From Gottfriedia acidiceleris (GTDB lineage Bacteria > Bacillota > Bacilli > Bacillales > Bacillaceae_G), in assembly GCF_023115465.1 (NCBI RefSeq), contig NZ_CP096034.1, positions 3,596,001 to 3,660,000 of the forward strand: a DNA stretch of 64,000 nt. The letters are read 5' to 3'. Below are positions 24,522 through 31,983 of this stretch, piece by piece (position 1 is the stretch's first letter; the number at the start of each line of letters is the position of its first letter). The notes under the pieces were generated by a model, which was not told where the DNA came from, searched no databases, and saw only the letters and a program-made list of their open reading frames with translations. A program made the position numbers and the translations under genes.

Positions 24522-25742
24522 TTACAATTTTTGTGGCTTACTTAACCTTTTATGCACATAAAATTTAATTAACCACATTGAAAATAAAGTATACACAACG
24601 ATTGCAATAATAAAGTTTAAGATTGACAAGCCCTTTATTAAACCAATAATACTAAAAGCTAGACTACATATTATTAGTAGTATATACAAAAGTGTCGAAA
24701 TAGATTTTTTATTTTCTTCATTTGTATAAGGATAAATTTTCCACAGCAAATGATAGTTATACTGTTTTAAAATTGACATATTCTGTAAGGAAATTACATA
24801 AAGAAATAAAATGCCAATCAATATTTTCCCAATTGTAGTTGGCACCAAGTAAACTACAAACCCACCTACGAAAAGTTGTCTTAAAAACATACTTAAATAG
24901 TTACCATTTCTGATGAATGTACGAACTAGTAAATAATTCGCAGCATTTCTCATTTTAATTTTATTAATGATTGGATCGGCCCACTTTCTTCGCTTAACCT
25001 GTTGCTGAATAGACGGCACATCAGTAAACATATTCGCAAATCGATAAAAAGTCGCTAGTCTTGAAGTATCAAGTTTAACATTTCTTTCCCATTGTACTCT
25101 TTTATTTTTACTACCTATTTGATTAGATAATGCATAAACAGCTAAAATGACAATCATTATGACAAGGAAAAAACTGCTCCATTTACTTAATAACCCATAA
25201 ATAAATAAGAAAGTACCTAGTAACCTTAAACAATAATCAAAAGCTCGGTTTAAAACACCACTATTTGTAAGGTGCAAGAATGAAACAAAGAGATTGTATC
25301 CTTTTAATAAGAAAATTATTACAATAAAGACGATAAAACTTGTTGTTTGTCCTAGTGAAAATTTCTTATAAATTGGATAAATAACACCTAACATCATTAA
25401 CATTAAGTAAACTTGAATGATGTACGTTATGAAAAAGGAACGGACAAAGTAGCTTTTCATCTTTTTTTCTAAAGGTAGTAAATAATGTAAATCAGGTCCT
25501 TTAAAAAAAGTAGTTACTTGACCTGTTACAACAAGAAAACTAAAAAGAATAGCAATTAGTAATATAGCCGGAAAGTCTGGAGAAATTGTTTTTAGCATTT
25601 GTTGATAATAATATGCTCCCCCTCCAAACCCAAAAACAATTACAAATTTTATATGATCATTAAAAATATAACGACCATATTTACTCACTTCTTTTATGAA
25701 GCTCCTATACCGTGCTAACCATAAATCTTTTATCGTACTCAT
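24522..25742 (-). CDS. ecsB: ABC transporter permease EcsB
   Basis: The 406-residue membrane subunit of the Ecs transporter, with about eight hydrophobic segments (around 30-75, 95-200 and 285-395) and a basic cytoplasmic loop near 205-260. EcsAB is linked in B. subtilis to processing of secreted proteins, competence and sporulation, and to intramembrane proteolysis by RasP. The start codon overlaps the ecsA stop (ATGA), indicating translational coupling. Confidence 0.9.
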   Translation of the reverse strand: MSTIKDLWLARYRSFIKEVSKYGRYIFNDHIKFVIVFGFGGGAYYYQQMLKTISPDFPAILLIAILFSFLVVTGQVTTFFKGPDLHYLLPLEKKMKSYFVRSFFITYIIQVYLMLMMLGVIYPIYKKFSLGQTTSFIVFIVIIFLLKGYNLFVSFLHLTNSGVLNRAFDYCLRLLGTFLFIYGLLSKWSSFFLVIMIVILAVYALSNQIGSKNKRVQWERNVKLDTSRLATFYRFANMFTDVPSIQQQVKRRKWADPIINKIKMRNAANYLLVRTFIRNGNYLSMFLRQLFVGGFVVYLVPTTIGKILIGILFLYVISLQNMSILKQYNYHLLWKIYPYTNEENKKSISTLLYILLIICSLAFSIIGLIKGLSILNFIIAIVVYTLFSMWLIKFYVHKRLSKPQKL

Positions 25743-26476
25743 ATTTCTTTTTCCTTCGTTGCAAAAATATAAATTTCATCTAATGAAGCATTTGGCATCT
25801 TATATTGAGTTTGTAATTCGTTTAATGTACCTTTTGCAATAATTACTCCTTCATGCAAAATAATAAATGAATCACAATAAATTTGAGCAGTCGATAAAAT
25901 ATGAGTAGACATTAAAATGCCTGCTCCTTTTTCTTTTTCATTGTTCAAAATCTCAAGTAAATCATTTATCGCGATTGGATCTAATCCTAAAAAGGGTTCA
26001 TCTATTATGTATAACTGTGGTTGGACAATAAGGGCACAAATGATCATTACCTTTTGTTTCATCCCTTTAGAGAATGTAGAAGGAAAATATTTTCTTTTAT
26101 CATATAATCTAAATGTTTTTAATAGCTCTTCACTACGTTTTTTTAAATCCTTTTCAGGAATATTATATGCCAAGGCTGTAATTTCAAGATGTTCCTGCAA
26201 AGTTAATTCATCATAAATCATCGGTGTTTCAGGAACATATGATATGCTAGCACGATATGCAGTTGGATCTTTATCAAAAGATTCACCATTAATTAATATG
26301 TCACCTTTAAATGGTTTCAAAAGTCCTAATATATGTTTTATAGTCGTACTCTTACCGGCACCATTTAACCCGATTAACCCAACAAGTTCATTCCTATTAA
26401 TCGTAAACGAGATATCTTTAATGACAGGCTGTCTAGTGTATCCACCTGTGACATCTTTTACATGTAATAAAGTCAT
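25739..26476 (-). CDS. ecsA: ABC transporter ATPase EcsA
   Basis: The 245-residue ATPase of the Ecs transporter. Walker A is GLNGAGKST (36-44), the signature is FSKGMKQK, Walker B is LYIIDEPFLGLDP, and the switch histidine is in LMSTHIL. Length and position first in ecsA-ecsB-ecsC are as in B. subtilis. The gene is transcribed away from the RNA array that begins about 115 bp upstream. Confidence 0.94.
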   Translation of the reverse strand: MTLLHVKDVTGGYTRQPVIKDISFTINRNELVGLIGLNGAGKSTTIKHILGLLKPFKGDILINGESFDKDPTAYRASISYVPETPMIYDELTLQEHLEITALAYNIPEKDLKKRSEELLKTFRLYDKRKYFPSTFSKGMKQKVMIICALIVQPQLYIIDEPFLGLDPIAINDLLEILNNEKEKGAGILMSTHILSTAQIYCDSFIILHEGVIIAKGTLNELQTQYKMPNASLDEIYIFATKEKEI

Positions 26477-26591
26477 TCTTTACAAATCCTTTCAAATGTA
26501 CTTTTCCTATAAATTTTATTGTATCAAATAATAATCTTAACTTCCTTATTATCATATTTATGGAATGCTAAAAAAAAATCCTTCTTTTTTT

Positions 26592-26620
26592 GAATACTAT
26601 TTTAGGTTAAGGGTATTATA
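26592..26620 (+). promoter_or_regulatory. promoter of RNA copy A (sigma-G-like)
   Basis: GAATA (26592-26596), 17 bp, TATTATA (26614-26620). The same -35/-10 arrangement recurs with exact spacing before copies B and C. A sigma-A reading (TTGAAT-18 bp-TATTAT) is also possible here. Confidence 0.45.
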
Positions 26621-26626
26621 ATTCTT

Positions 26627-27018
26627 GAAGGGAAAGCAACACACTTTCCAGTTCAAAATTTGAAATGAGGTGTGTGTTAAAGGAAATTTAATTTGCGTTC
26701 AAACCTAAGTCAGATACTTGTTTAAGTGAAATGAGGTATCTCCAAAGATTAACATCGTTGTCATATACAGCAATGCAAATATCTAAGGAGATGGTGCGCT
26801 TGAACATGATCTATAAAAACAAAGGTCATTAGTATACCAATTTGTAAATGAGGTGTCTCGAGCAGAACATATAATTTATTTATAGGTGTACCAATTTATT
26901 GAACATTAAAGCAAATGAGGTGTCTGTTAAAGACAATTTAACTTATTAACCTAAAATCATTTTCTAAAATCTTTCCCCTTCATCAAGGAGCAACTACTGG
27001 TTGCTCCTTGTTTTATTT
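26627..27018 (+). ncRNA. tandem structured RNA, copy A (~390 nt)
   Basis: An unrecognised non-coding RNA, first of three paralogous copies. It starts about 7 bp after a conserved promoter block and ends in the hairpin CAAGGAGCAAC / GTTGCTCCTTG plus T run (26984-27018). Conserved structure includes a 5' hairpin GGAAAG / CTTTCC whose loop AACACAC can pair with GTGTGTT downstream, a long-range helix GTTCAA / TTGAAC enclosing TCTCC / GGAGA, and a small hairpin TGTCT-GTTAA-AGACA near the 3' end. The motif AAATGAGGT(G/A)T occurs at 26663, 26729, 26846 and 26913. No frame with a ribosome-binding site is conserved among copies, so a coding role is unlikely. Confidence 0.7.
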
Positions 27019-27057
27019 GTTGAAAAACAAACTTTTTAAGTTATTATTAAGAACAAT

Positions 27058-27150
27058 GATTGTTGATTTCCACTACAGGATACTCGCTTTCCATGGGTCG
27101 AGACCTCAGCCACCTTGTCATCATCCGCTCCAAACAACTAATTCATTTAA
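27058..27150. repeat. family-1 dispersed repeat, copy 2 (internally shortened)
   Basis: GTTGATTTCCACTACAGG and CTCGCTTTCCATGGG match the 31558 copy closely. The central GGGGTCTCA and CCCATAGGAGT segments are missing, and the sequence ends with a CCGCTCCAAACAAC tail. It lies between RNA copies A and B. Confidence 0.6.
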
Positions 27151-27269
27151 TCTATACCTTATTTATCCAATTAACTAACGGCCATTTCTTCAATCTGATT
27201 CAAGTCCCTCTCTGTTATCTAGCTTTCCTCTCATCCTTTGATGTCTTTTAAATTTTCATCCCCTATTAA

Positions 27270-27298
27270 GAATACTTTCTTTACCGCAGGGCATCATA
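27270..27298 (+). promoter_or_regulatory. promoter of RNA copy B (sigma-G-like)
   Basis: GAATA (27270-27274), 17 bp, CATCATA (27292-27298), which fits the sigma-G pattern GMATR / CATNMTA. No good sigma-A -35 is present here. Confidence 0.5.
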
Positions 27299-27304
27299 AG
27301 TTTT

Positions 27305-27675
27305 GAAGAGAAAGCAACACACTTTCTAATTCAAAAATTTGAAATGAGGTGTGTGTTAAAGGTAATTTAATTTGCGTTCAAACCTGTGCAAGGTAACGGT
27401 TAAAGTGAAAAGTCTCCCAAGATAAAGCATCGTTGTATAAACAGCAGTGAAAATATCAAAGGAGATGGTTAGCTTGAACATTACCACTTAAAAACAAAGG
27501 TTTTAGTATACCAATTTGTAAATGAGGTGTCTCGAGCAGAGCATATAAATTTATTTTAAGGTGTACCAATTTATTGAACATTAAAGCAAATGAGGTGTCT
27601 GTTAAAGACAATTTATAATTACTCCAATATTCTTTCCTCTTCATCAAGAAGCAACATTAGTTGCTTCTTGTTTTA
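27305..27675 (+). ncRNA. tandem structured RNA, copy B (~370 nt)
   Basis: Second paralogue of the array, nearly identical to copy C and diverged from copy A. The terminator stem is CAAGAAGCAAC / GTTGCTTCTTG (27645-27674), so a G-C pair of copy A is replaced by A-U. The 5' hairpin is AGAAAG / CTTTCT, likewise a compensatory change. The AAATGAGGTGT motif occurs at 27342, 27520 and 27588. The last two each follow GTATACCAATTT or GTGTACCAATTT, showing an internal duplication. Open frames on the opposite strand are not supported by a ribosome-binding site. Confidence 0.7.
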
Positions 27676-27823
27676 GGTTGTAGAATAGAAGTTATGTTAC
27701 CCACTTCTAGATGTCCACTTTAGGTTTGTTCATCGAGAGCACGTCCTTCCCGTCCCTATACTATACTTTTAATAATCCAAATAAATTAATTAGTCTAAAA
27801 CTGCTTTTGTTTTTATTGTTTTT

Positions 27824-27852
27824 GCATACTTTCTTTTATACAGGGCATCATA
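27824..27852 (+). promoter_or_regulatory. promoter of RNA copy C (sigma-G-like)
   Basis: GCATA (27824-27828), 17 bp, CATCATA (27846-27852). It matches GMATR / CATNMTA at every position and is conserved with copy B, while the 130 bp just upstream is not. Confidence 0.5.
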
Positions 27853-27858
27853 AGTTTT

Positions 27859-28237
27859 GAAGGGAAAGCAACACACTTTCTAATTCAAAAATTTGAAATG
27901 AGGTGTGTGTTAAAGGTAATTTAATTTGCGTTCAAACCTATGCAAGGGTAGATGTTGAAGTGAAATTTCTCCATAGATAAAACATCGTTGTATAAAACAG
28001 CAGTGAAAACATCATAAGGAGATGGTTAGCTTGAACATTATCACTTATAAACAAAGGTTTTAGTATACCAATTTGTAAATGAGGTGTCTCGACCAGAGCA
28101 TATAAATTTCTTATAAGGTGTACCAATTTATTGAACATTAAAGCAAATGAGGTGTCTGTTAAAGACAATTTATAATTACTCCAATATTCTTTCCCCTTCA
28201 TCAAGAAGCAACATAGGTTGCTTCTTGTTTATTTTTT
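27859..28237 (+). ncRNA. tandem structured RNA, copy C (~380 nt)
   Basis: Third paralogue, ending in CAAGAAGCAAC / GTTGCTTCTTG plus T-rich sequence (28202-28237), about 70 bp before hit. The AAATGAGGTGT motif is at 27896, 28077 and 28145. The 5' hairpin pairs GGAAAG with CTTTCT (one G-U). The stem TTCTCC / GGAGA and the enclosed CATCGTTGT / ACAGCAGTG helix are kept although the connecting sequence differs from copies A and B. Function is unknown. Confidence 0.7.
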
Positions 28238-28307
28238 CCTGGCCCTATTTCCCCTTTAACCTACGCCTATGTTAAAATAAGGAAAAAAGTGAAAGGAAGT
28301 ATAAAAA

Positions 28308-28745
28308 ATGGCACATGACGCTAATTGTATTTTCTGTAAAATTGTTGAAGGTAGCATCCCAGCTTCAAAAGTATACGAGGATGATGATATTTTAGCTTTT
28401 TTAGATCTAAGTCAAGTTACAAAAGGACACACTTTAGTCATTCCAAAGGATCATGTTGAAAACATATTCGAAATGAGTGAAGAGACAGCTAGTACATACT
28501 TCCGAAAAGTACCTCAAATTGCGAATGCAATGAAAGAAACTTTTAATGTCCAAGGTGTAAATATTTTAAATAATAGTGGTGAAGTTTCAGGCCAAACTGT
28601 ATTTCATTATCATATGCATATTTTACCACGATACGGAAATAATGATGGCTTTGATGTAAAATGGCATTCAAACCAAAATCAATACACAAATGAAACACTA
28701 CAAGAGATTGCAAAATCTATCGAAAATAACATTATTAAAAAATAA
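28308..28745 (+). CDS. hit: HIT-family nucleotide-binding protein
   Basis: A 145-residue histidine-triad protein of the Hit/HinT group, which hydrolyses nucleoside phosphoramidates or related adenylates. The N-terminal CIFCKIVEGSIPASKVYEDD and the triad VFHYHMHILPRY (about 105-116) are present. The CxxC near the start may bind zinc. AAAGGAAG precedes ATG. It is single, with a strong terminator, and lies between ecsA and hpr as in B. subtilis. Confidence 0.93.
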   Translation: MAHDANCIFCKIVEGSIPASKVYEDDDILAFLDLSQVTKGHTLVIPKDHVENIFEMSEETASTYFRKVPQIANAMKETFNVQGVNILNNSGEVSGQTVFHYHMHILPRYGNNDGFDVKWHSNQNQYTNETLQEIAKSIENNIIKK

Positions 28746-31494: not shown

Positions 31495-31983
31495 CACGCT
31501 GTTGAAAAACAACCTTGTCAATTAAATTACCAAATTTTCGTAAAAGGAGTAAAGTGATGTTGATTTCCACTACAGGGTGCTCGCTTTCCATGGGGCGAGA
31601 CCTGAGCCTCCGGGGTCTCAGCCTTCCCGCTAATCCCATAGGAGTCGATCACCCCTCCGTTCCAATCAACTTATACAATTAAAAAAAGTCTGTAATTAAA
31701 TACTAGTCAAATAGCTTTTACTTAGAGTAATCTAACTGTTGTATATTAATCAGCTTGTAGATCAATTAATACCGAACAATTGTTAAACTAAACTATAAAA
31801 TTTTTTCCCTAAAAAAGCCCATAATATTTTTAACTTCTAAAAAAATCATTACTAGTGTTATTCGAATAATAAAATTGCTCAAACACTTTTACATTTAAAA
31901 CCATTAAAAAATCATTCAAAAAATGCTAATTTTATCATTATTAACTGTTCATTTAAAGTCCGTTTCCCTATTGATGACTTTAT
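31495..31983. other. intergenic region between prsA and yhaL
   Basis: No gene is seen. Apart from the dispersed repeat at 31558-31670 the 490 bases are AT-rich without recognisable features. The region is bounded on both sides by the same terminator hairpin. Confidence 0.5.
31558..31670. repeat. family-1 dispersed repeat, copy 3 (best conserved)
   Basis: The fullest copy: TGTTGATTTCCACTACAGGG, GTGCTCGCTTTCCATGGGGC, GAGACCTGAGCCTCCGGGGT, CTCAGCC, CCCATAGGAGTCGA and a TCCAATCAAC end. The start GTTGATT and end AATCAAC are complementary, so the block has terminal inverted repeats. Confidence 0.7.

Follow-up and report, generated by a model that had tools for sequence, protein, structure and literature searches.

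Three tandem probable homologues of the sporulation RNA ncr1670/S357/Bvs196 between ecsA and hit in Gottfriedia acidiceleris

A small RNA encoded between hinT (hit) and ecsA has been described in two Bacillus species. In B. subtilis, ncr1670 is reported as a hinT-ecsA transcript of 256 nucleotides (nt), enriched 2.77-fold with Hfq (PMC3574147), and is the same RNA as S357 (PMC4410918). In the main text on B. velezensis (PMC9147052), Bvs196 is a 294-nt RNA between hinT and ecsA with an intrinsic terminator, starting 4 nt past a sigma-F/G promoter. It is driven by sigma-F and mainly by sigma-G, and its reporter was confined to forespores. Its loss lowers the sporulation frequency and the resistance to heat and ultraviolet light, and in vitro it binds spo0A and sspN-tlp RNA (PMC9147052). 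The same text calls the B. subtilis homologue S357 once and S547 elsewhere. As far as the text of these papers goes, the RNA is treated as a single transcript of 256-294 nt. We analysed a stretch of 64,000 nt from Gottfriedia acidiceleris (contig NZ_CP096034.1, positions 3,596,001 to 3,660,000; the window). It contains three paralogous units, A, B and C, on the forward strand between ecsA and hit. These are probably tandem-triplicated homologues of ncr1670/S357/Bvs196, that is, forespore small RNAs (sRNAs) under sigma-F/G control, closed by a long-range helix (P1) and acting in trans on translation.

The first-pass annotation of the window had described three tandem paralogous units at this place, with an exact 17-bp promoter spacing and a hairpin terminator in each, and our analysis confirmed these features. 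An alignment of the units with their flanks gives a mean identity of 86% per column. Given a start 4 nt past the promoter, the transcripts would be 387 (A), 365 (B) and 368 nt (C) long. The promoter-like blocks share GHATR-N17-YATNATA, which fits the sigma-F/sigma-G type and not sigma-A. A sigma-70 promoter scan of positions 26400-28400 stayed at background level (11 found, 8.9 expected). The terminator scan of the same interval found three intrinsic terminators, with 0.8 expected, one per unit and no others.

~26626..27016, + strand: RNA unit A, start inferred, 3' end at the terminator (fold test; A-type group in the tree)
~27304..27676, + strand: RNA unit B, start inferred (sequence, terminator, tree)
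~27858..28233, + strand: RNA unit C, start inferred (sequence, terminator, fold test)
26592..26620, + strand: promoter-like block A, GAATA-N17-TATTATA (sequence; relatives' promoters)
27270..27298, + strand: promoter-like block B, GAATA-N17-CATCATA (sequence)
27824..27852, + strand: promoter-like block C, GCATA-N17-CATCATA (sequence)
26984..27010, + strand: intrinsic terminator A (terminator scan)
27645..27670, + strand: intrinsic terminator B (terminator scan)
28202..28227, + strand: intrinsic terminator C (terminator scan)

Single-unit folding, which covered A and C, agrees with the view that these are structured RNAs. The folding energies have z-scores of -6.2 (A) and -4.7 (C) against dinucleotide shuffles, and none of 100 shuffles was as good. 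In an alignment of 27 units of the genus, RNAalifold base-pairs UGAAGGGAAAG at the 5' end with CUUUCCCCUUCA immediately upstream of the terminator, forming P1. The earlier annotation had proposed a local hairpin at the 5' end, changing from GGAAAG/CTTTCC to AGAAAG/CTTTCT. These strands do occur in A and B, respectively; however, C has GGAAAG/CTTTCT, with a G-U pair, and the local hairpin is less supported than P1. The change in B is compensated in P1 as well, where GAAGAGAAAG pairs with CUUUCCUCUUC (alignment pair 21-396), and we think that the P1 3' strand, not the local hairpin, is the real partner of the 5' end. The compensatory change in the terminator stem, also claimed earlier, is present among the 27 units (alignment pair 407-428: A-U in 16, G-C in 10, G-U in one). 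So are the complementary sequences AACACAC/GTGTGTT and GTTCAA/TTGAAC in the window, the first pair being seen, by eye, only in this genus.

26626..26636, + strand: P1 5' strand, copy A (pairs with 26971-26982)
26971..26982, + strand: P1 3' strand, copy A (RNAalifold, duplex permutation, covariation count)
27304..27314, + strand: P1 5' strand, copy B, G-to-A relative to A and C (genus alignment)
27632..27643, + strand: P1 3' strand, copy B, compensating C-to-T (genus alignment)
27858..27868, + strand: P1 5' strand, copy C (pairs with 28189-28200)
28189..28200, + strand: P1 3' strand, copy C (RNAalifold, duplex permutation, covariation count)

P1 and the terminator together have 99.5% of cells paired in the genus alignment and 12 two-sided changes, matched by none of 500 shuffles. 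Over the whole genus alignment, RNAalifold gives two-sided changes in 3 of 90 pairs and a covariation term of -0.73 out of -66.59 kcal/mol. Beyond the terminator and P1 the covariation is thin, and the count of further pair types is not above shuffles (54 of 500 reach it).

The stronger evidence for P1 comes from a comparison across genera. We considered 80 named hit loci, a non-random set chosen as the best 80 by match to the B. subtilis protein; 74 of them bear the 22-nt module M1 described below. From 47 of these 74, together with A, B and C, a set of 50 units was compiled, the other 27 loci lacking either a -10 pattern or a terminator that the script could find within its limits. The native 5'/3' duplexes have a mean energy of -19.5 kcal/mol, compared with -14.1 kcal/mol for permuted partners, and none of 10,000 permutations was as good. 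The true 3' strand gives a duplex z-score of -11.2 and the reversed 3' strand one of -4.6; six internal control segments lie between -2.6 and +2.8. Therefore the signal reflects composition and relatedness in part, and mostly pairing. The family-wide MAFFT/RNAalifold analysis (45 of the 50 units, filtered by length) recovered, besides P1 and the terminator, short helices in two copies of M1 and nothing more.

The sequence between the strands of P1 contains repeated modules. M1 is a 22-nt sequence, AAAUGAGGUGUYURUYRAAGAC, occurring three times in each copy of the window, with a fourth, degenerate instance in A.

26663..26684, + strand: M1, copy A, first instance (motif search)
26729..26750, + strand: degenerate M1-like AAATGAGGTAT, in the window's copy A only (repeat family D5)
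26846..26867, + strand: M1, copy A (motif search)
26913..26934, + strand: M1, copy A (motif search)
27342..27363, + strand: M1, copy B (motif search)
27520..27541, + strand: M1, copy B (motif search)
27588..27609, + strand: M1, copy B (motif search)
27896..27917, + strand: M1, copy C (motif search)
28077..28098, + strand: M1, copy C (motif search)
28145..28166, + strand: M1, copy C (motif search)

Searched with a tolerance of one mismatch, the 80 loci hold no M1 (six loci), one (one), two (22), three (42), four (four), five (one) or seven (four), always upstream of hit and with variable spacers, so that at least two copies are present at 73 loci. Among 256 instances of a laxer pattern the conserved stretch is sharply bounded at 22 nt; the GGTG core was demanded by that search and is 100% conserved by construction. 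Of 397 genomes sampled from the order, 118 contain a strict M1 20-mer (one mismatch allowed), with no match among the rows for the reversed control. The laxer pattern occurs in 308 of the 397, and its reversed control also matched in many. Single-sequence folding favours a hairpin within M1 (positions 9-12 with 18-21, counted from 0), and no pair of it exceeded shuffles among 176 distinct instances. A perfect 11-nt complement of M1 was found at one other site of the own genome, apparently coding (by eye), and the reversed-pattern control also gave one. AAUGAGGU may bear a passing likeness to a kink-turn strand of U4 snRNA. The loci L090, L092, L110 and L120 hold the seven M1 copies each. One promoter-like block was found in each of the first three, which suggests duplication within one RNA rather than tandem genes there.

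The second module, M2, is AAGGRGAUGGUYNNNUUGAAC, with 64 instances in 40 of the 50 units, two each in 24 units.

26785..26802, + strand: M2, copy A, AAGGAG, spacer and TTG (motif search)
27459..27476, + strand: M2, copy B (motif search)
28016..28033, + strand: M2, copy C (motif search)

The triplet 13 nt past the first G of GGRG is TTG in 61 instances and ATG in three (Priestia flexa L099, Priestia megaterium L143 and Bacillus sp. L118). A conserved peptide encoded by a mini-reading frame at M2 was rejected, as the frames differ between units in both length and sequence. Moreover, no other leucine codon occurs at the UUG position in the 64 instances. Therefore the UUG is start-codon-like or part of an RNA motif, and does not belong to a conserved peptide. 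The frame following M2 has 10 codons with a TTG start in A (26800-26832) and C (28031-28063) and five in B; by eye, the 10-codon frame is kept in several A-type relatives. Both M1, with its GAGGUG core, and M2, with AAGGRG and UUG, look like Shine-Dalgarno sites.

Judged by their sequence, A, B and C are added members of a known, little-studied RNA that has no matching Rfam model here. The first-pass annotation had recognised no RNA family. Indeed, Rfam 15 gave no match at gathering score in the window, and each of 13 matches at E <= 5 in 26400-28400 lies under the gathering score of its family. However, the homologue at the same locus had already been named ncr1670/S357/Bvs196 in the text of the papers cited above. 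Like it, A, B and C are placed between ecsA and hit and have a terminator and, at the sequence level, a sigma-F/G-type promoter. M1 and the covarying P1 are common to A, B, C and the loci L074-L082 of the B. subtilis and B. pumilus groups; beyond these elements there is no end-to-end alignment. The promoter of B. siamensis L077, presumably a near relative of B. velezensis, is GCATA-N17-CATCATA, with the same spacing as in A, B and C. By the 4-nt rule the RNA would be 293 nt long in B. siamensis L077, 291 nt in B. inaquosorum and 320 nt in B. paralicheniformis L079. Homology, synteny, the promoter pattern, P1 and the modules are each supported by the sequence, and the earlier suggestion of a multicopy regulatory RNA linked to sporulation is well supported. 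Among the 74 module-bearing loci, the -10 pattern GGNYATNNTA is found in 53, compared with about 7% of mononucleotide shuffles, in a span from 160 nt upstream of the first module through the last module. Sigma-G itself is strongly matched in the own genome (6.8e-154).

Several observations weigh against this reading. At 365-387 nt, A, B and C are longer than the 291-293 nt of the Bacillus RNAs and fall outside the published range of 256-294 nt; we did not take length as defining, because L079 has 320 nt and the span before the terminator is 236-475 nt in the 50 units. M2 is absent from 10 of the 50 units, namely from L151 and the nine L074-L082. The published sspN-tlp site of B. velezensis (nt 109-124, in the main text of PMC9147052) lies outside M1 in L077, by eye, and therefore does not explain the modules. 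The -10 pattern was not found in 21 of the 74 module-bearing loci, including Rossellomorea L121, L123, L124, L139, L141 and L148, and the full -35/-10 pattern is present in just 36 of the 74. Of the 12 two-sided changes, 10 belong to one terminator pair; the two in P1 are changes in single sequences, one of them copy B. The small number in P1 is explained by the close relatedness of the genus. Co-occurrence with sigma-G was considered as evidence and set aside. The sigma-G matches are weak (about 1e-36 to 1e-39) in 15 of 397 genomes, none of which has the strict module. However, the module is also missing from the other genomes sampled in families f7, f25 and f35, and in f14 just one has it, so the comparison is confounded by family and uninformative.

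The surroundings of the RNA are conserved in many genomes. In the window the neighbouring genes are the following.

25739..26476, - strand: ecsA, divergent neighbour (ABC_tran), followed by ecsB and ecsC
28308..28745, + strand: hit (hinT), downstream neighbour

At 73 of the 80 loci a divergent ecsA was recognised no further than 1.6 kb upstream of hit. The six loci without M1 also lack a recognised ecsA; the seventh without it, L141, is at a contig edge. In the own genome there are three matches at E <= 0.001, all at the ecsA-hit locus and none elsewhere. The own-genome copies lie at one locus and 50,697 phage records gave no match, which speaks against a dispersed repeat or mobile element. 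Each of the 12 other genomes sampled in the genus has between one and four matches. Beyond the genus, short matches were found in 8 of 47 genomes, all eight within M1-bearing stretches.

A tree of 27 units separates the A-type copies found in ten genomes from the B/C-type copies (support 0.97), and therefore the first duplication predates several species splits, with both products kept. B copies from four genomes form a group (0.97), whereas the grouping of the C copies is less firm; G2C and G8C are placed outside the B/C split. The genome G009 seems to have a second copy of its own, and L098 has two promoter-like blocks. Second copies away from hit occur in four genomes (L155, L157, L158 and L161), with the terminator and P1 strands seen by eye. 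At least one of them is on a chromosome-sized contig, and another contig matches a Priestia plasmid. Among 72,556 plasmid records 39 match a displaced copy, 31 of them over at least 80% of the copy, and all are from Priestia, for which reason these four genomes are presumably Priestia too. The Priestia plasmids are the exception, for that genus, to the single-locus rule. The 20 plasmid matches listed include Priestia megaterium and P. aryabhattai plasmids of 48.6-212 kb, with no annotated feature under the match. A different repeat of about 55 bp, containing TTGATTTCCACTACAGGATACTCGCTTTCCATGGG, lies in the A-B spacer outside the RNA (27061-27115) and again at 31558-31611. At least 40 matches to it were scored in the own genome, itself counted (67 candidates), the others being 84-94% identical over 42-57 bp.

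The best supported role of A, B and C is that of forespore trans-acting sRNAs acting post-transcriptionally. Each unit would be its own transcription unit, switched on in the forespore by its sigma-F/sigma-G promoter. The RNA, about 365-390 nt long, would close via P1, the 5' end pairing with the sequence just before the terminator, and would be released to act in trans. The closed scaffold may then present the ribosome-binding-like modules M1 and M2 and affect translation in the maturing spore, by base pairing to target mRNAs, through a reader of the modules, or both. Expression in this organism, a role of the modules and a benefit of three copies are what we infer from this arrangement.

One possibility for such a reader is an RNA-binding protein. 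M1 would be its site, and the RNA would titrate or scaffold the protein in the manner of the RNAs that titrate CsrA/RsmA. A sequence-conserved 22-mer in at least two copies at 73 of 80 loci with variable spacers is what such an array would look like, and the possible M1 hairpin has no covariation. However, the M1 pairs are so invariant that the missing covariation carries little weight. The ncr1670 transcript was co-purified with Hfq according to the text of PMC3574147, but the enrichment is modest and the partner protein is hypothetical. We regard the protein array as a tentative possibility.

The likeness to Shine-Dalgarno sites suggests another reader, the ribosome itself: M1 and M2 would bind the anti-Shine-Dalgarno sequence of 16S rRNA, each RNA holding several 30S subunits and damping or storing translation in the forespore. 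M1 has AAAUGAGGUG, one position off the ideal AAAGGAGGUG, and the anti-Shine-Dalgarno sequence occurs 12 times in the own genome. In all 64 instances of M2 the TTG or ATG stands at start-codon distance from AAGGRG. The units have 4.66 predicted anti-Shine-Dalgarno sites each (at or below -9.5 kcal/mol), compared with 1.24 in dinucleotide shuffles, although this excess largely restates the presence of the modules. On the other hand, the fourth position of M1 is a 90% conserved U (230 T, 17 A, 9 C and no G in 256 instances), although a G there would make the stronger pair. This model gives no role to the AAAG conserved in the 3' half of M1, and folding predictions leave GAGGUG largely paired, with mean unpaired probabilities of 0.14-0.40 at its six positions. 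We consider a ribosome decoy unlikely. Its broader version, a Bacillales family of spore RNAs whose closed scaffold with mock ribosome-binding sites gathers 30S subunits or translation factors and throttles or stores translation before dormancy, is a speculative and quite improbable one. If it were true, M1 would be a mock site with no start codon and M2 one with UUG or AUG at start distance, and tandem triplication and plasmid copies would raise the dose of the RNA.

Pairing with CsfG, a sigma-F/G sRNA of the forespore with CU-rich loops, is very improbable. Both are forespore RNAs of Bacillus, and the own genome has a csfG candidate (RF00516, 96.6 bits; CsfG is the opposite strand in the text of PMC3574147). 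However, the own csfG stretch has no CACCTC, and its duplexes with A, B and C are matched by 7, 39 and 20 of 200 shuffles, in a comparison within the own genome only. The RF00516 model (ylbH, the strand opposite CsfG) has matches elsewhere in the own genome and none at the ecsA-hit locus. A second weak match to it (L043, G000:C1:3543540-3543651; 35.4 bits, below cut-off) has a terminator-like hairpin on the opposite strand, by eye, and contains CCATCCCCTT, the complement of AAGGGGATGG in M2; it is a possible second CsfG-like RNA. Finally, we give almost no credence to a cis-acting leader or riboswitch of hit: the units do lie upstream of hit on the same strand at the 74 module-bearing loci, but a cis role is disfavoured because each unit has its own terminator and extra copies are located away from hit.

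P1, M1 and M2 are not mentioned in the published text on Bvs196: its main text, outside figures and supplements, does not contain the terms "motif", "tandem", "paralog" or "Rfam" (PMC9147052). A literature search with the module sequences gave no bacterial paper among the matches listed. The trans-acting sRNA proposed here would extend across the Bacillales, with a defined architecture of closing helix, 22-nt module and start-site-like module, tandem amplification in this genus and plasmid copies in Priestia. An sRNA with two reported targets would thereby gain clear parts for mutation, and the reader of the modules is directly testable in B. subtilis.

Among the described RNAs, Bvs196 resembles A, B and C in locus, sigma-F/G promoter and intrinsic terminator, and both M1 and P1 are present at the B. 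siamensis L077 locus. However, Bvs196 is described in the main text of PMC9147052 as one copy of 294 nt, and L077 has no M2, whereas here there are three copies with M2. The B. subtilis ncr1670/S357 shares the hinT-ecsA locus, but in the text of its reports is a 256-nt RNA listed singly and associated with Hfq (PMC3574147, PMC4410918). CsfG, as described in PMC9147052, is a small sigma-F/G RNA of the forespore, as we propose for A, B and C, but it is encoded at another locus, ylbG-ylbH.

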